64,000 nucleotides of DNA, taken from positions 62,001-126,000 of the forward strand of contig CAILEM010000067.1 in NCBI GenBank assembly GCA_903833215.1, in the 5' to 3' direction. This DNA comes from an uncultured Armatimonadota bacterium. GTDB taxonomy: Bacteria > Armatimonadota > Fimbriimonadia > Fimbriimonadales > Fimbriimonadaceae. This document shows positions 20,479 through 28,766 of the stretch, in pieces. The notes beneath the pieces were generated by a model. It was not told the origin of the DNA and searched no databases. It was given only the letters and a program-made list of their open reading frames with translations. The stretch's first letter is position 1. Every line of letters begins with the position of its first letter. A program made the position numbers and the translations under genes.

Positions 20479-21071
20479 CTCGCATTAAGATCTGTGGCCT
20501 TACGCGACCACAAGACGCCGAATTGGCAATTGAGCTCGGCGCTGACGCGTTAGGGTTTGTCCACGAGCGCTCTAGTAAGCGCTTTATCGGCGATGGCGAA
20601 CTGAAGTGGATCGCCGTCCTACCTCCTATACCCTTGAAGATCGCCGTATTTGGGATTGTCGATCGTCCAGTCCTGCGCGGACTGTTTGACGTTATTCAGG
20701 GTGTGGAATGGAGGGATTACCAAGAGGCGTCCTCGAAGCGGATTCATGTAATTCGTCCGCGAGAGGGTCAACGCCCCGAAGATGTGATGAACGGTATTGT
20801 TCCCGCTTCGGCCGTCCTCATCGATGCCTACTCAAGCGACGCCTTCGGGGGGACCGGAAAACGAGTTGACCTGAGCTTCGCGGCAGAAGTCGTGCAAAAG
20901 TCGAACGTGCCAATTATCCTTGCCGGCGGTTTGAATCCCGACAATGTAGCCGATGTCATTCGAATCGCAAAACCGTTTGCGGTCGATGTGAGTAGTGGTA
21001 TCGAGTCAAAACCTGGCATCAAAGACCCGATCATGTTGCGAGATTTCATCCAAGCAGCCCGAGGCGCTTAG
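20472..21071 (+). CDS. trpF: phosphoribosylanthranilate isomerase, apparent CTG start
   Basis: The TIM-barrel enzyme performs the Amadori rearrangement between TrpD and TrpC. The conserved start TRIKICGLTRPQDAE, including the catalytic Cys of KICG, lies upstream of the first ordinary start codon in this frame (TTG at 20523), which would delete it. The only plausible initiator after the in-frame TGA at 20460 is CTG at 20472, five bases after GAGGTG, giving 199 residues, the usual length. Other motifs: LGFVHERSSKRF, LIDAYS (catalytic Asp), FGGTGKRVDLSF, ILAGGLNPDNV and VDVSSGIES. It overlaps the trpC stop by seven bases. ATT at 20484 is a less likely start. Confidence 0.92.
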   Translation: MVTRIKICGLTRPQDAELAIELGADALGFVHERSSKRFIGDGELKWIAVLPPIPLKIAVFGIVDRPVLRGLFDVIQGVEWRDYQEASSKRIHVIRPREGQRPEDVMNGIVPASAVLIDAYSSDAFGGTGKRVDLSFAAEVVQKSNVPIILAGGLNPDNVADVIRIAKPFAVDVSSGIESKPGIKDPIMLRDFIQAARGA

Positions 21072-21126: not shown

Positions 21127-22629
21127 ATGAACGCACCACAAGAGATCGAGGTTCTGATTCGAGCGAAGTACCCGATCCTGTACATTGTCTCGTGGGAAGA
21201 GCGGCGTGTTGAAGACGCCGTCCAGAAAGTTTGCACAGGGCTCAACCGAACTCTGCACACTTGGTCGATTACTCAAGGCATGAAGCCGACAGTAAGTGGA
21301 CCAGGTGGCCCAATGAAGTCAACCTCGTTGCCTGGGGAACTTGAGGCATTGGCGACCGTTCATGGTGCGCCTGAATACACGGTGTTTCTTCTCAAAGATT
21401 TCCATCCTTATATGAAGGATTACCGTGTCGTGCGGTTACTGCGAGATCTTGCAACCCGGTTGCGTGGCCGCGCTGAGACACTGATTTTGATGGGTCCCTC
21501 ACTCAACCTACCAACGGACCTTGAGAAGGACATCACGGTGGTAGAGTTCGGACTTCCAGAAGTTTCCGATATCGAATTAACTCTTGACCGCATCACGGAT
21601 GCAGTCAAAGACAATGCGAACATAGACACCAAGCTTGAGCCCAAGCAACGCGAGGCCCTCGTCAAGAGTGCCCAAGGCCTTACTCAAGACGAGATCGAAT
21701 CTGTATTTGCACGATCACTCGTGGAACGGCGCAAATTTGATCTGGACATTGTTCTCGAAGAAAAGAAGCAAATCATCCGGAAATCTGGCCTCTTGGAATA
21801 CTACGCGCCTGATGCCCAAATCAAGGATGTTGGCGGCCTTGAGGTGTTGAAGGAGTGGCTCGACAAGCGTGCGGAGAGCTTCACCGATAAAGCCAAAGAA
21901 TTTGGCATTCCGTCACCCAAGGGAATTCTGCTGTTAGGTGTTCAGGGCTGCGGTAAATCGCTTGTCGCCAAGGCCGTTGCCTCCCAGTGGAATCTCCCCT
22001 TGCTTAAGCTCGACGTCGGACGGATTTTTGGCTCGTTGGTGGGTCAGAGCGAAGAAAATATCCGAAGCGCCATTAAGGTCAGCGAATCCGTTGCTCCATG
22101 CATTCTTTGGGCAGATGAGCTTGAAAAGGGGTTTGCTGGTGTTAGCGGCGGAGGTGTCAGTGATAGTGGGACCACCGCTCGTGTGTTCTCTACATTCCTA
22201 ACATGGATGCAAGAGAAGACTGCCCCGGTCTTTCTGATGGCCACGGCGAATGACGTGTCTTCGCTGCCACCAGAAATGCTTCGAAAGGGTCGCTTTGACG
22301 AGATCTTCTTTGTCGACCTGCCAGATGCTGAGGAGCGCGAGCAGATCTTCTCAATCCATATCCTGAAAAGAAAACGTGACGTTGAGAAGTTCAATCTCAA
22401 AGCCCTCGCCAAGGCCTCTGATGGATTCAGCGGCGCAGAAATAGAGCAGGCAATTGTCAGCGCACTCTACGTCGCCTTCGACGCGAAACGGGAACTGCTC
22501 CAGAAGGATGTGATTGGAGAACTTAAGGCGACGGTGCCCCTGAGCGTGATGATGAGAGAGGATATTCAACAACTTCGAGACTGGGCGATCCTACGGACTC
22601 GTCCAGCCTCTAAGAAGAATCCTGCTTAG
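21127..22629 (+). CDS. Ycf46-like AAA+ ATPase
   Basis: About 500 residues. The N-terminal half (EIEVLIRAKYPILYIVSWEERRVEDAV...) is the non-catalytic region typical of the cyanobacterial/plastid Ycf46 group; the C-terminal half is a classical AAA module: LLGVQGCGKS (Walker A, about residue 272), CILWADELEK (Walker B), MATANDVSSLPPEMLRKGRFDE (sensor 1 and arginine-finger region) and GFSGAEIEQAI (sensor 2). Walker B has WADE in place of the usual hhhhDE but keeps the Asp-Glu pair. The cellular role of Ycf46 proteins is poorly defined; a chaperone-like or regulatory function is possible. ATG 21127 is preferred to GTG 21109. It follows trpF by 55 bases on the same strand. Confidence 0.88.
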   Translation: MNAPQEIEVLIRAKYPILYIVSWEERRVEDAVQKVCTGLNRTLHTWSITQGMKPTVSGPGGPMKSTSLPGELEALATVHGAPEYTVFLLKDFHPYMKDYRVVRLLRDLATRLRGRAETLILMGPSLNLPTDLEKDITVVEFGLPEVSDIELTLDRITDAVKDNANIDTKLEPKQREALVKSAQGLTQDEIESVFARSLVERRKFDLDIVLEEKKQIIRKSGLLEYYAPDAQIKDVGGLEVLKEWLDKRAESFTDKAKEFGIPSPKGILLLGVQGCGKSLVAKAVASQWNLPLLKLDVGRIFGSLVGQSEENIRSAIKVSESVAPCILWADELEKGFAGVSGGGVSDSGTTARVFSTFLTWMQEKTAPVFLMATANDVSSLPPEMLRKGRFDEIFFVDLPDAEEREQIFSIHILKRKRDVEKFNLKALAKASDGFSGAEIEQAIVSALYVAFDAKRELLQKDVIGELKATVPLSVMMREDIQQLRDWAILRTRPASKKNPA

Positions 22630-22805
22630 GCGATCGGTGCGCTTAGCACTCGCTTGGCGGCATAAACACCGGCGATGGCGATGATCATTGCCACCGGAAT
22701 CATGTTTGCCATGAGCGAAATGAAAGTGCCAACGACAACCGTGCCCGTAATGAGGGCGAACGTGTCTTGACGCTCGTCCATTACTTTTCTTTGTCTTGCG
22801 GCCAT
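22626..22805 (-). CDS. 59-residue small membrane protein
   Basis: A short open frame on the minus strand encodes MAARQRKVMDERQDTFALI followed by two hydrophobic stretches (TVVVGTFISLMANMIPVAMIIAIAGVYAA in all) and the tail KRVLSAPIA. The basic N-terminus, hydrophobic hairpin and basic C-terminal KR fit a two-pass inner-membrane protein with both ends in the cytoplasm. Its stop codon overlaps the last four bases of the convergent AAA+ gene. The upstream sequence has GGAAGATGG but no strong Shine-Dalgarno. I recognise no family; the call rests on amino-acid pattern and lack of any other gene here. Confidence 0.55.
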   Translation of the reverse strand: MAARQRKVMDERQDTFALITGTVVVGTFISLMANMIPVAMIIAIAGVYAAKRVLSAPIA

Positions 22806-22908
22806 ATATCCATCTTCCCGTGTGCGGAGTTACCCAACAAGTCGCGCCTTTGCGCTACAGGTTCTCGGTGATTGGAGAAGTGGTACAAAGCGCACCCCAA
22901 AAGCGAGG

Positions 22909-22943
22909 AGCCCGCCCTAACTGGGGTGTGTTAGGAACGGGCT
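22909..22943 (-). terminator. imperfect hairpin downstream of the secreted protein gene
   Basis: AGCCCG-CC-CTAAC and GTTAG-GAA-CGGGCT pair around an eight-base loop, with an internal mismatch bulge. It lies about 105 bases beyond the stop of the minus-strand gene ending at 23048 and is followed on that strand by CCTCGCTTTTGGG, a short T run. A role as its terminator is plausible. Apart from this hairpin I see nothing in the 242-base gap 22806-23047. Confidence 0.4.
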
Positions 22944-23047
22944 GGAGGGTTTTGAGGATTGGACTTGCGTCAACTAGTTCAACGTCCAAATCGCCAAAAA
23001 GGTTCCATTATTTGTGAGCACTATTTGGGCGATTCGGTATGAATTTT

Positions 23048-23740
23048 CTATTGAACGAGAGTGACAGTCACATCCCCAGAGATTGGGCCGACGCCAGCAA
23101 TCGGAACATTTGTCCATTTGGCAGTGAGCTTCACCATGGCATTGTCCGACTTGCGAAGCCAGATGAACCCTTCGCTGGAAGCACCACCAGTTGCAGTCTC
23201 TTTGTTGACGTACTTGATCTTGTAAGCCTCAATCGCGCCGACCTTGTCTTCGCCAACAAACGTGTAGTCAGCTTTAGCGGCGACCGCACCTGTAGTTTTG
23301 TTCTCTTTAACGTCGTAGGACCATGAATCACCAGCGTTCAGGGCTTTGTCTGTGAAGACAAAAAGACTCAGGTTGGCGTTACGATAAGCACTCTCGTCAA
23401 CCCGCTCTCCCTCGATCTTGATTAACTCGCCTTTTGCCGATAGGGTCGTGGTGGATCCAGCCGGACCGGCACCATCTGGGGCGTCGTTACCGTTGAGCTT
23501 CATCTCGGAAAGGTCTTCCTTCGTCGAATAGTCTCCGTTGGCTTCGACCTTGACAACTTTATGGGTTGTGGTCGCAGAGAACTCGATCTCCATGCCGTTG
23601 AAGTCCAACTTTGCGGTTTGGTGATATTTGAGAACGTCACCAACCTTTGGCGACAATTTGAGAGTTACTCCGTCGACACCTGCAAATGCGACCGAAGCTA
23701 GAACTGCTGCAGCAAGACCGATAGCTAATCTGAATTTCAT
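23048..23740 (-). CDS. hypothetical secreted protein (DUF6263-like beta-rich)
   Basis: About 230 residues with a clean signal peptide (MKFRLAIGLAAAVLASVAFA) and a soluble beta-rich body: LKLSPKVGDVLKYHQTAKLDFNG, EIEFSATTTHKVVKVEANGDYS, STTTLSAKGELIKIEGERV and SWSYDVKENKT. The pattern of paired strands with a 'kvGdvlkY..t' opening resembles periplasmic proteins that measure or carry hydrophobic ligands, but this is only resemblance. The ATG at 23740 begins the signal peptide; an upstream in-frame extension to 23791 looks untranslated. Transcribed alone, with a possible terminator at 22909-22943. Confidence 0.65.
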   Translation of the reverse strand: MKFRLAIGLAAAVLASVAFAGVDGVTLKLSPKVGDVLKYHQTAKLDFNGMEIEFSATTTHKVVKVEANGDYSTKEDLSEMKLNGNDAPDGAGPAGSTTTLSAKGELIKIEGERVDESAYRNANLSLFVFTDKALNAGDSWSYDVKENKTTGAVAAKADYTFVGEDKVGAIEAYKIKYVNKETATGGASSEGFIWLRKSDNAMVKLTAKWTNVPIAGVGPISGDVTVTLVQ

Positions 23741-23791
23741 TTTGTTTCTCTCACGAGGTGCTTTGAATTTGGTCGAACATCCTCTGGGCAA

Positions 23792-24163
23792 CCCGTTGCC
23801 TTGAATAGATTACGGTATTAGTCGGCCTTTCGTTGACCGAATCCGCAAAAGTTAATACGCCGCCAATTTTGGAAGACATTTGGAACGTTGAAGAGACCGG
23901 AAGATTTGCCCGGTCCTTTCTAGCGAGCTCGAATAGCAGTATCCCCTTGAACCTATTTTAGCGAGAGCATCGACTGGACAACCAAGAAGTCCTCGAAGTT
24001 GGCCCTGTTCCTCAAGAACCATTCGGCAAATCACGGTTGCACACAGATCCATACAATGTCTAGTTGAATCTAGTGTCGCGTTGTAAGTGTAGTGTCTGAT
24101 AAATCGATCAGCATCGACGAACCTGTTCAAAACGTTAAATCTTCCCTGATCGTTGCCGCCGTC
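23792..24163. other. gene-poor stretch
   Basis: No convincing gene. A minus-strand open frame (23852-24130) has a Cys/Arg-rich composition without family pattern. A 6-bp stem, GACCGG (23895-23900) with CCGGTC (23910-23915), is followed on the plus strand by CTTTCT but no plus-strand gene precedes it. The rest is probably the 3' flank of the CHAP gene and the promoter region of the secreted protein gene. Confidence 0.4.
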
Positions 24164-24691
24164 TCAATTTGATGAGCGGCTGAGGAAGCCAGATATCTTT
24201 AGTGAATAGCCTTTGTTCTCGAAGGAGATAGACGAGCCCGAGCGTGTGACGCTAGCTGTACGAATGGTAAAGCCGTCCAGTACTCCAAAGGCGTCTCCGA
24301 CCGACATGTTGGCGTGGGAAACCGTCCAGTGGTCGCTGTCGATTACCTCTTCGACGTATGCGACGTGACCGTAAGGATTGCCAGGCCAGGCATCAACAAC
24401 CATGATCTCCCCCGGAGCCGGACTTGCAACGAGACTGGCATTGACGACGCGGAGGGGCCGGTCCTTGGCATTGCGGCCATAGGATTGGTCAAAGCGGAGT
24501 CGCCAGCCCGATTGTTTCGCTCGATCAAAGGCATACCAAGTACATTGGCCCTTGTTGAAGCTGTTCTTCGCGTGATGACCCACGAACATATTCCGATAGT
24601 GGGATTTCCGCAGCCACTTTTTGTAGGTGATCCCGGCAAACAGCAAGGAGCAACACACGAAACCAGCTACGACCGCATTCCTCAAACGCAT
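24164..24691 (-). CDS. CHAP-domain peptidoglycan amidase/endopeptidase, membrane-anchored
   Basis: The 175-residue protein has an N-terminal signal anchor (AVVAGFVCCSLLFAGITY, residues 6-23) and a CHAP domain (about 45-160). The nucleophile Cys lies in GQCTWYAFDRA near residue 50 and the catalytic His in YGHVAYVEEV near 107, with PAPGEIMVVDAWP between them, the standard order. CHAP enzymes cut peptide or amide bonds in peptidoglycan, so a role in wall remodelling outside the inner membrane is likely. It stands alone, next to a 400-base gene-poor region upstream. Confidence 0.88.
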   Translation of the reverse strand: MRLRNAVVAGFVCCSLLFAGITYKKWLRKSHYRNMFVGHHAKNSFNKGQCTWYAFDRAKQSGWRLRFDQSYGRNAKDRPLRVVNASLVASPAPGEIMVVDAWPGNPYGHVAYVEEVIDSDHWTVSHANMSVGDAFGVLDGFTIRTASVTRSGSSISFENKGYSLKISGFLSRSSN

Positions 24692-25109
24692 GATGTTGAC
24701 TTGGCGAGATCTAGGAAATGAATGCGAGATTCTTTGCTCGCGTTAGGAGCCATCGGGGGAACGACTATCAGTTTGCAGATGCGTGGACGCAGGGCTGAGG
24801 ACACACTTGTGTTGGTTTTCTTGGGTATGTCTCATTGGAGCACATCAAACAACGTCACGTCTAATCTTTACGCGTAAACAGCCCATAATTGCTGCCGTCG
24901 CCTACTGCGAGACATCTGGTCGTTACGAGACATCCGCCCAAAGGTGTTCATTCGGGCTTGAGAAATTATGGGATTGCTGCTTTTCCTCGCTCAGTGTAGG
25001 TTGGTTCTCTTCCCAGCAGACATAAGCTGAAGCTGGCGCCGCACCGTCAACTCACTACGTCAAAGTGGGACCTCAAGGGTGATCGCACAATAATGTAAAT
25101 CCCGTGGGC
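24692..25109. other. gene-poor stretch with small dyads
   Basis: No supportable gene. It contains the perfect palindrome TTTACGCGTAAA at 24867-24878, an inverted pair CCCATAATT (24882-24890) / AATTATGGG (24964-24972), and a direct pair CGAGACATC at 24908-24916 and 24926-24934. These lie upstream of the minus-strand CHAP gene and could be regulatory, or be relics of a degraded gene. A plus-strand frame at 24783-25025 has no family pattern. Confidence 0.35.
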
Positions 25110-25706
25110 TCAACCTTGCCGTGGAACAATTCGGGTCACCGCCCTAACATCTTCGAGACGTATGTCCCACATGACACCTTGAATCATTTGTGTTTGATCT
25201 GAACAAAAGAAATGATTCTGGGCGGATTTCAGGTCAAAAATCTGAGCCCAGCTCTCCAGAATAAGTGAGTGCAACGCGCACCCAGGCACAGGCCGCTCCT
25301 CTGGGTTCATGCCGACCGCCGCGCATCGGGCCTCGAACTCCTCCGCGTCGTCACCGGATCGAGGAAGCTACCAATAGTTGATGACGCAATTCCACAGTTC
25401 GAAGTCGGAAAGGAGGACTCTGGACTCACTGACTTCGAGCTGAATCCGAACGCTATGCCTCAACCGGCGATAGCACCGCGCGCGCAGGTCGGGCATTCGC
25501 TTATGTTCACCAAACCACTGAAACCAGGCCCAAACAGGAATTTGGTCTTCTAGCTCGCGGGGTCCCGCTCGCTCACGGAGTTTGTCAGCCATCCAGGCAT
25601 TGGCTACGGGCCACGGATCATCGATGAACGGCTGTCGAGCACGCCAGACCCCTTCGGACTGTAACGTCTCCCAGACATTGATTGGCTGAATCGTCCATAG
25701 AGTCAC
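25110..25706 (-). pseudogene. DUF3841 protein interrupted by one in-frame TAG
   Basis: One reading frame spans the whole DUF3841 family length (198 codons from GTG 25706) but contains a single TAG at 25368-25370. Before it: TLWTIQPINVWETLQ, IPVWAWFQWFGEHKRMPDLR and RVLLSDFELWNCVINYW. After it: LPRSGDDAEEFEA and LESWAQIFDLKSA, then IQGVMWDIRLEDVRAV. Family members usually read NYWYLP here, so the stop replaces a Tyr codon by one base change. No frameshift or other stop is present. DUF3841 is a small soluble family of unknown function. It may be a recent pseudogene, a readthrough gene or a sequencing error. A TTG at 25745 is another possible start. Confidence 0.8.
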
Positions 25707-25879
25707 AACGATGTAAAGTCTATCAACCTCTCGTTTGCCTGCCAAGCTGGGATGCGGATGACAACATTTGCATTGCCATCCAACGGCGCACCACCTTACA
25801 AATACAAATTCCTCAAAATTTCCAGGAGAGAATAGTCGCTTGACGTTCTAAGCACACCGTTGACCTGGAAATAACACAC

Positions 25880-25895
25880 GCTCAGCGAACTGAGC
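25880..25895. other. small CGAA tetraloop hairpin
   Basis: GCTCAG-CGAA-CTGAGC forms a perfect 6-bp stem with a stable tetraloop, 19 bases from the larger dyad at 25914-25964 in the gap downstream of thrS. It may be part of the same structured 3' region. No T tract follows on either strand. Confidence 0.3.
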
Positions 25896-25913
25896 AGACC
25901 AGGTTGATCCGAT

Positions 25914-25964
25914 CCGACCAACGGGCCGTGACTTCCGTCGTGGAAGCCATAGCCTGTTGGTCGG
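25914..25964 (-). terminator. long two-tier hairpin downstream of thrS
   Basis: CCGACCAAC and GTTGGTCGG make a perfect 9-bp outer stem, with an inner CTTCC/GGAAG pair. It begins nine bases after the thrS stop. There is no run of T after it on the minus strand, so it may be a Rho-dependent or RNA-stabilising element instead of a classical intrinsic terminator. Confidence 0.45.
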
Positions 25965-25972
25965 CTGAGAAC

Positions 25973-27772
25973 CTACCGGCTAGGGGTGATTTTCTCGATG
26001 AAGGCTTCGAGAGTCATCGCACCTAAGTCGCCATCTTCCCGACTTCTTACGCCGACGGTGCCCATCTCAATATCCCGGTCACCCAAGACCAGCATGTACG
26101 GCACTTTCTGGAGTTGTGCTTCGCGGATCTTTTTACCAAGAGTCTCCCTTCGCTCGTCGACTTGCACTCTGAGTTTGTGCGTGTCTCTGAGTTTCAAATA
26201 GAGTTCCTTGGCGGCGTCGACGTGTCGATCTGAAATCGGCAGAATCGCGATCTGAACTGGAGCGAGCCAGAACGGGAAGGCTCCCGCATACTGCTCCGTA
26301 AGCAATCCAATCATTCGCTCAAGCGATCCGAACGGAGCGCGGTGGATCATGATCGGTCGGTGAGGCTTGCTATCCTCGCCGATGTACTCCAACTCAAACC
26401 GCTCAGGCAGGTTGTAGTCCACCTGAACCGTTCCCATCTGCCAATCGCGACCAAGTGCGTCCTTGATGATGAGGTCCAGTTTGGGACCATAGAATGCAGC
26501 GTCTCCAACCGAAACGAAGTAATCCACACCCATCTTTTGGCACGCCTGTTCGATGGCAGACGTTGCCGCGGTCCAGTTGTCATCGTGGCCGATGTACTTA
26601 TCGCTTGCAGGATCCTTTGTTCCCAAACGAGCTTTGAAGTCCTTCAGGCCAAGTCGATTGAGAACCGTCTTCATCAGGTCAACAACGCCAATGAACTCCT
26701 CGAGCAACTGATCGGGCCGGACGAAGAGGTGGGCGTCGTCTTGCGTGAATCCGCGAGCTCGTAGGATGCCAGTGACTTCGCCGCTCTGCTCGTATCGGTG
26801 CACCGTACCGAACTCAGCGTAGCGCACGGGCAAGTCACGGTAGGACCGCATCTGAGACTGATAGATCTCGATGTGGAATGGGCAGTTCATGGGTTTGAGA
26901 ATGTAAGTTTCTTTCTCCTCATCCTCCATGAACGGGAACATCTTGTCCTTGTAGGTGATCACATGTCCAGACTTCTCGTAAAGGCGAATGCTGGCGATTT
27001 GTGGAGTTACCACTGGCTCGTAGCCGCGCTTCAGCTGTTCGTCCTTTAGGAACCCGACCATCGTATCGCGCAAGGTTGCTCCCTTAGGCAGCCACAACGG
27101 CAATCCAGGTCCAACTCTTGGCGAGAACATGAACAGTCCAAGCTCGCGACCGAGAATTCGGTGATCGCGCTTCCGCGCCTCTTCCAGGTTATGGAGGTGC
27201 GTTTCTAGTTCTTCTTGAGTTTCGAATGCCGTTCCATAAATTCTCGTAAGTTGCTTGTTCTTAACGTCGCCGCGCCAATACGCTCCAGCGATCGACATCA
27301 GCTTGAAGTGCTTTACTTCCTTCGTCGTATCAACGTGAGGTCCACGACAAAGATCGATGAAACGGTGCAAGACACCCGCTCGGTCGGTGCGCTGCTGATC
27401 GTAGAAGCTGATTTCTTGGCCGTCGGGCACTGCTTCCAACAATTGAAGCTTGTACTCGGCGACTTCGGGTCCTTGACCAAGGGTCGTTTCTTCCAGGATT
27501 TTCGTGCGTGCGGCGTCACGGTCTTCGGCCACGATGCGAACAATCCGCTGATCGAGCTTTGCCAGCTCTTTCATCTTCACCTCAATTTTGGTGAGATCTT
27601 CTTCGCGAATCGGGACGGACGAATCGACGTCGTAATAGAATCCATTTTCAATCGGAGGGCCGATTGCGAGTTTGATTCCAGGATAAAGCTCCGTAAGAGC
27701 TTGGGCCATCAAGTGAGCGGCTGAATGGCGTAATCGATAAAGATAACTTTCTTCGTAAACAGGTGCTTCCAT
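25973..27772 (-). CDS. thrS: threonyl-tRNA synthetase without N-terminal TGS domain
   Basis: The 599-residue enzyme charges tRNA-Thr. It begins almost directly with the editing domain (HSAAHLMAQAL at about residue 17, the HxxxH site; CRGPHVD at about 145), continues with the class II core (motif 2 region AEFGTVHRYEQSGEVTG; LKPMNCPFHIEIY with the zinc Cys; RGFTQDDAHLF; MIHRAPFGSLERMIG motif 3) and ends with the anticodon-binding domain (VPYMLVLGDRD). The usual ~60-residue TGS domain is missing, and upstream sequence contains no in-frame coding extension. The ATG at 27772 is supported by GGGAGGT seven bases upstream; a start at 27793 is less likely. Confidence 0.95.
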   Translation of the reverse strand: MEAPVYEESYLYRLRHSAAHLMAQALTELYPGIKLAIGPPIENGFYYDVDSSVPIREEDLTKIEVKMKELAKLDQRIVRIVAEDRDAARTKILEETTLGQGPEVAEYKLQLLEAVPDGQEISFYDQQRTDRAGVLHRFIDLCRGPHVDTTKEVKHFKLMSIAGAYWRGDVKNKQLTRIYGTAFETQEELETHLHNLEEARKRDHRILGRELGLFMFSPRVGPGLPLWLPKGATLRDTMVGFLKDEQLKRGYEPVVTPQIASIRLYEKSGHVITYKDKMFPFMEDEEKETYILKPMNCPFHIEIYQSQMRSYRDLPVRYAEFGTVHRYEQSGEVTGILRARGFTQDDAHLFVRPDQLLEEFIGVVDLMKTVLNRLGLKDFKARLGTKDPASDKYIGHDDNWTAATSAIEQACQKMGVDYFVSVGDAAFYGPKLDLIIKDALGRDWQMGTVQVDYNLPERFELEYIGEDSKPHRPIMIHRAPFGSLERMIGLLTEQYAGAFPFWLAPVQIAILPISDRHVDAAKELYLKLRDTHKLRVQVDERRETLGKKIREAQLQKVPYMLVLGDRDIEMGTVGVRSREDGDLGAMTLEAFIEKITPSR

Positions 27773-27814
27773 AAGTCTAACCTCCCATACCAAGGGATCG
27801 AGTTGTCAGAGGGA

Positions 27815-27820
27815 ATTATA
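27815..27820 (-). promoter_or_regulatory. candidate -10 element for thrS
   Basis: A perfect TATAAT on the minus strand lies 42 bases before the thrS ATG. The -35 region is weak. No T-box-like stem or anti-terminator is visible in the short leader, so thrS is probably not controlled by tRNA-sensing attenuation here. Confidence 0.45.
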
Positions 27821-27914
27821 CTGTCTTGAACAATTCGGGCGAAATATCAGTCCATATCTCACGGGGTGAGATCAACTGGCCCCGAATTCAATATCCAAAC
27901 GGAACCCAAGCCTA

Positions 27915-28766
27915 GTGAAACAAATCGCCCTCATCTTTGGCCTCCTTGCCACTCAAGCTTCGCTGGCCCAGTCGGCAGATCCCAACGAAGTTGTCCTTCA
28001 AGATGCGCTACGGCAACTGTCGTTTCAACAGACCCTATTTCTGCAACTCAACGGGTCGGTAACTTTTCACGGCAAGGTCACGCCTGTGGTATCGAACCTG
28101 TCCTGGTCAGCGAATACCGCGGGGACGACGCCGACGATGCAAGTGGATCTAAAGTCCTACGTGAATGGCGCACTCGTCAAGCGGATTGTTGGCGACGGCA
28201 GCACCCTTTGGTCATACGATCTCAAACAGCACCAATATTCAGCAACGTCTTATGGCGGCACGCCCGGCCTTGCTCGCCCAGAAGGTTACGTCTCGCATCT
28301 GCTCAGCGACCTCAATTGGGCAGCGACTGGTTCCGATGGGTACCTCGCCAAACTGTTGCGTCAGATTTATAATCCAGCAAACCTGAATTACGAAAGCTGG
28401 ATGCCAGGGATTCCTACCATTCAGTTGAGGCAGGGTATTCCCCAGAAGGATCCCGTCAATCCTGATGTCATCTACTACCCCTCAGCTGGAAACGACTTCT
28501 ACTTCTATAACGCTAGCCCCAGAAGAACGATCGTCATGCAGATTGCTTCGGGATTGACATCTCCAACGGGTGGTGCTCCGGTCTCGGGCCTCGAAAACGT
28601 GTATTTCAATCAGCTTGATATGGTTGGCAAAGACAGCAAGCTGACGCAGTGGATTATCACTCCCTACTCCGGAATCGTATTTGACCAAGACCTGTTCACC
28701 CCTTATGGCGGCAAGTATCTGTATGGCTGGAAGATGATTGTCGCACCGCGACCAGTAACGCGTTAG
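27915..28766 (+). CDS. hypothetical exported protein
   Basis: The 283-residue product starts at GTG with a good signal peptide (MKQIALIFGLLATQASLAQS). The body is beta-rich: QQTLFLQLNGSVTFHGKVTPVVSNLSWSAN, TMQVDLKSYVNGALVKRIVGDGSTLWSYDLKQHQYSATSYGG, and YGGKYLYGWKM near the end. The opening resembles LolA-like or outer-membrane lipoprotein-sorting beta sheets ('gdg.tlw.yd...qy') but the rest does not let me assign a family. It is divergent from thrS and overlaps the convergent gene at 28763 by four bases. Confidence 0.65.
   Translation: MKQIALIFGLLATQASLAQSADPNEVVLQDALRQLSFQQTLFLQLNGSVTFHGKVTPVVSNLSWSANTAGTTPTMQVDLKSYVNGALVKRIVGDGSTLWSYDLKQHQYSATSYGGTPGLARPEGYVSHLLSDLNWAATGSDGYLAKLLRQIYNPANLNYESWMPGIPTIQLRQGIPQKDPVNPDVIYYPSAGNDFYFYNASPRRTIVMQIASGLTSPTGGAPVSGLENVYFNQLDMVGKDSKLTQWIITPYSGIVFDQDLFTPYGGKYLYGWKMIVAPRPVTR

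Follow-up and report, generated by a model that had tools for sequence, protein, structure and literature searches.

A solitary DUF3841 gene split by one in-frame amber codon in an Armatimonadota genome, probably a recent nonsense pseudogene

The closest described counterparts of the locus reported here are the nonsense pseudogenes of accessory or transferred bacterial genes. Two published observations bear on such cases: in Salmonella young pseudogenes are quickly removed (PMC2916853, in the portion of that study drawn on here), and artefacts account for many of the pseudogenes with internal stops in public assemblies, according to the part of a survey of such assemblies that we cite (PMC11017572). 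The family concerned, DUF3841 (Pfam PF12952), was named in no paper of the literature that we searched. In the window (the whole stretch of 64,000 nucleotides that was analysed), one frame matches DUF3841 over its full length, but is split by one TAG. We consider it very likely that this solitary, patchily inherited gene is an ordinary nonsense pseudogene, and probably a recent one.

The interrupted frame and its relatives

The broken gene lies on the minus strand at 25110-25706, the PF12952 match extending over the read-through frame, with a likely GTG start at 25706-25704 and a terminal TGA at 25110-25112. The in-frame TAG (25368-25370, minus strand) is codon 113 counted from that GTG. It separates a pre-stop part of 112 codons (25371-25706, minus strand), the sole part expected to be translated, from a post-stop part of 85 codons (25113-25367, minus strand) in which DUF3841 is still recognisable. 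On the minus strand we see, as the initial annotation had claimed, a single frame spanning both sides of the TAG and running open to the TGA; the TAG itself is known from one assembly. The annotation had begun the gene at 25745, but the TTG there overlaps a weak promoter-like site (TTGGCA-17-TAGACT, 25717-25745, minus strand) that ends about 10 bases 5' of the GTG, and we place the start at GTG 25706-25704 because relatives in our A3 alignment begin M-x-[LIV]-W-T. Promoter-like sites as such carry no sign of function here, the consensus scan having found two where 1.4 would be expected by chance.

When the last 85 codons are shuffled, as many as 504 of 20000 versions also stay open, so our case rests on homology and not on openness. 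Taken alone, the pre-stop piece reaches 53.9 bits (E 2.4e-14, profile positions 1-106), over the curated PF12952 cut-off of 27 bits, and the post-stop piece reaches 23.7 bits (E 4.3e-5, positions 110-177), just below it. Read through, the frame 25110-25745 scores 97.2 bits and covers positions 1-177 of the 178 in the profile, on a par with the intact relative L083 (97.5 bits). Both the stop and the homology on its two sides are thus direct observations.

The amber codon falls in a column that is aromatic in all 17 aligned relatives (six non-window rows of alignment A3 and eleven rows of alignment A4), 15 of which have Tyr there; the two exceptions, one Trp and one Phe, are both in A3, where Tyr occupies four of the six rows, as against 11 of 11 in A4. 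The sequences left outside these alignments are L053/L090 (at a contig end), L055, L056, L101, L104, L085, L112 and the second tandem copies L107 and L109. Within this sample of the family, the proposal that Tyr belongs at the stop position is therefore borne out. The motifs cited in its support fared unevenly: SWxxIF, together with LLSxxxxW, is a real family motif, but 'LPRSGDD' is not conserved among the relatives.

Full-length intact relatives include L083, L084, L087, L088 and L089, and the nearest found, L083/L050, is 36% identical to the window protein. Searches further afield gave little. The read-through protein and L050 had no match in PHROGs or PADLOC, a PDB sequence search returned nothing credible for DUF3841, and A4 and A5 gave only weak matches to other Pfam families (E at least 0.06). 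A DUF3841 relative was found neither in viral contigs searched with A3, nor in phage records searched with L097, nor in a single-protein scan of genome contigs.

Could the 112-residue product be a functional short DUF3841? One genome, G123 (L052/L086), does carry a short open frame, with neither the SW..F motif nor the C-terminus, although this frame extends past the amber column. Almost every other relative that we saw has the full length, however, and a short form would forgo the C-terminal part, with its conserved SWxxIF and the three final strands of the predicted fold; we hold a functional short form to be very unlikely.

Readings of the amber codon and origin of the gene

The initial annotation had left three options for the stop: recent inactivation, a suppressed amber codon or a base-call error. 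Of these we find recent inactivation the best supported, base-call error possible but disfavoured, and suppression contradicted by the tRNA set. Read-through by a suppressor tRNA, pyrrolysine or a recoding signal would yield a full-length protein, and would suit both a post-stop part that is still recognisable as DUF3841 and an amber codon standing in a Tyr/aromatic column. Nevertheless, none of the 47 tRNA genes found has a CUA anticodon (the genome gave at least 47 tRNA matches, from 150 of 259 candidates scored, and all 47 anticodons were read with ARAGORN); the best match to the PylS profile, at 20.8 bits against a cut-off of 178.15, yields no credible PylS; no Rfam element lies within 22500-28000; and TAG is the commonest stop, ending 22 of 42 window genes (long, mostly non-overlapping frames hand-picked from 100 ORFs), the adjoining thrS included. 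Read-through is thus, in our estimation, very unlikely. Stop usage, tRNA set and PylS score likewise reject TAG as a general sense codon, and the lack of any Rfam match in 22500-28000 rejects a recoding RNA at the stop.

The main rival to the pseudogene reading is a sequencing or assembly error, with the DUF3841 gene intact in the cell. Such an error would fit a frame that is otherwise open and that scores like an intact relative; the assembly has 6,222,879 bases in 168 contigs, and the artefacts reported from public assemblies in the cited part of the survey (PMC11017572) are of just this internal-stop kind. Against this, control domains of the same genome contain no internal stops (0/75 ABC_tran and 0/18 GerE matches, 0/93 together), a count that bounds the error rate only loosely: false stops do not abound in the assembly, though a single base may still be wrong. 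On balance we regard an error as unlikely.

We therefore favour a nonsense pseudogene, which probably arose as follows. The lineage would have gained a solitary DUF3841 gene that sampled relatives do not show, and one nonsense substitution would have inactivated it, such that translation from the GTG near 25706 would stop at the amber codon after 112 residues, giving a product from which the helices of the C-terminus and the three final strands of the predicted fold would be missing. In an AlphaFold2 model of the intact L083 (pLDDT 85.7), the residues missing here correspond to helices after residue 120 and to strands 178-183, 185-187 and 191-199. Judged from this model of a 36%-identical relative, the truncated product would lack part of the core, and we infer that it is probably unstable or inactive, with loss of function.

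The TAG is the sole lesion in the frame. Otherwise the frame shows little decay, its read-through score being near-equal to that of L083, and this counts against the pseudogene reading. A single lesion suggests either a recent loss or a remnant that decay has had little time to reach, and the quick removal of young pseudogenes in Salmonella, as given in the cited portion of that study (PMC2916853), fits such a recent loss. The 197 sense codons allow 1773 single changes, 80 of which create a stop; with substitutions alone, neutral divergence would have to reach about 0.11 for the chance of a second stop to be 95%, and less than that if indels are counted too. Other measures of decay, which exclude the short row L086, add little: identity falls after the stop position between intact relatives too, so that the drop is family-wide and the window protein shows no excess loss. 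It retains 16 of the 23 columns common to the other five rows, those rows themselves ranging from 16/16 to 16/21; this slightly lower retention may be, at most, a hint of relaxed constraint.

The setting of the gene bears on its origin. A profile search of its own genome gave one DUF3841 match, which rules out a second intact copy that would make the broken one redundant. Counting this genome, DUF3841 occurs in one of 85 genomes of the family and in seven of 291 of the phylum. Upstream lies an intact thrS (25973-27793, minus strand), itself ending in TAG, and downstream, 418 bases off, a CHAP-domain gene (24164-24691, minus strand; PF05257, 49.6 bits). The thrS-side stretches of five genomes of the genus matched neither the DUF3841 gene nor the CHAP gene. 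In the nearest relative by thrS (G016, 88%), thrS is separated from the homologue of 23048-23791 by an ABC transporter-like gene, so named from its translation; in G014, too, the interval from thrS to the next gene in common is occupied by different genes. DUF3841 is thus absent beside thrS in both relatives with a comparable locus. Its codon-usage scores are low and atypical, at 0.024 before the stop and 0.092 after it, the reference being 196 chunks of window genes with a 5% quantile of 0.076 and a median of 0.218. We infer that this solitary gene was gained by transfer in this lineage.

Two further features of the window were noted. An inverted repeat with 23-nt arms, 83% complementary, lies just after thrS at 25914-25964. 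A supposedly broken trpF start near 20523 was rejected, its frame being intact when read from further upstream.

The predicted fold of DUF3841

AlphaFold2 models of two members, L083 and L089, reached pLDDT 85.7 and 82.8; they are not independent, since their alignments share six sequences, and for the second one run of five was confident (82.8), the others reaching at most 56.1. On a second look both models match mostly ART-fold entries, among them CC0527, Tpt1 and DarT. The best Z scores, 6.2 and 6.5, are both to CC0527, and a Z below 8 may reflect a common arrangement. In the PDB fold lists from Foldseek no row reached E 0.001 for either model, while the best BFVD match to the first model, at E 1.3e-6, is to an unnamed entry. 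Because of the low Z values, and with no Foldseek E below 0.001 in the PDB, we keep the weak resemblance of modelled DUF3841 to ART-fold proteins as a lead and not as an assignment.

CC0527 we take to be a member of DUF952, and the DUF952 signal in Caulobacter agrees with such membership, the DUF952 search having given one weak match in 113 genomes. In the part of the literature cited here, DUF952 is listed in the ART clan, and the ART clades H-H-h, H-Y-[EDQ] and R-[ST]-E take a His or Arg from strand 1 (PMC7955679). Strand 1 of DUF3841 (residues 2-8), its register being judged from sequence and not from superposition, has no invariant His or Arg in A3 or A4, the invariant residues in A3 being W and T, and for this reason we do not file DUF3841 in the ART superfamily. 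Even so, the likeness is a first clue to the fold of DUF3841, and may prove more useful than the pseudogene itself.

Other DUF3841 loci and other broken genes

Some DUF3841 genes lie beside Rhs elements, where the position directly after an Rhs core/tip frame is the usual place of an immunity gene. In one genome (G135), two weak DUF3841-like genes (L055 and L056; 24.4 and 23.1 bits, below the cut-off) stand directly after frames with Rhs core domains of 72.9 and 40.6 bits, and the DUF3841 gene L087 overlaps the end of a frame whose Rhs match is below threshold (17.9 against 32.5 bits). Elsewhere the genes come in pairs: adjacent tandem copies occur in five genomes of a Clostridium's order (L095, L097-L100, L105-L109), and on Enterococcus gilvus plasmid pCR1A (L114) a tandem pair lies behind a GntR regulator gene.

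By our own count DUF3841 was seen at 27 distinct places, at three of which it is clearly broken: the window gene, the copy of Clostridium sp. D33t1_170424_F3 (L085), and one in genome G683 with a change of frame. Besides these, the G123 copy ends early and that of G142 runs off its contig. The lesions differ among the broken genes, from which we argue that the losses were independent, with assembly errors possible at those other sites.

A broader and rather doubtful idea would draw these threads together: DUF3841 might be a family of ART fold that lacks the catalytic residue usually found on strand 1 and has some members at the immunity-gene sites of Rhs elements, and solitary copies such as the window gene would be orphans whose gain and later breakage took place independently in several phyla.

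The window gene itself illustrates cleanly a young nonsense pseudogene, and it warns that a lone in-frame amber codon should not be taken for recoding. Within its family it can be set beside the Clostridium gene, which also carries an in-frame stop, but there it is a TGA, and the lesions are more numerous, a change of frame among them. Nothing about the window gene is distinctive when it is set against accessory or transferred bacterial genes that have become nonsense pseudogenes: it too is solitary and patchy in its distribution, and one disabling change has broken it.
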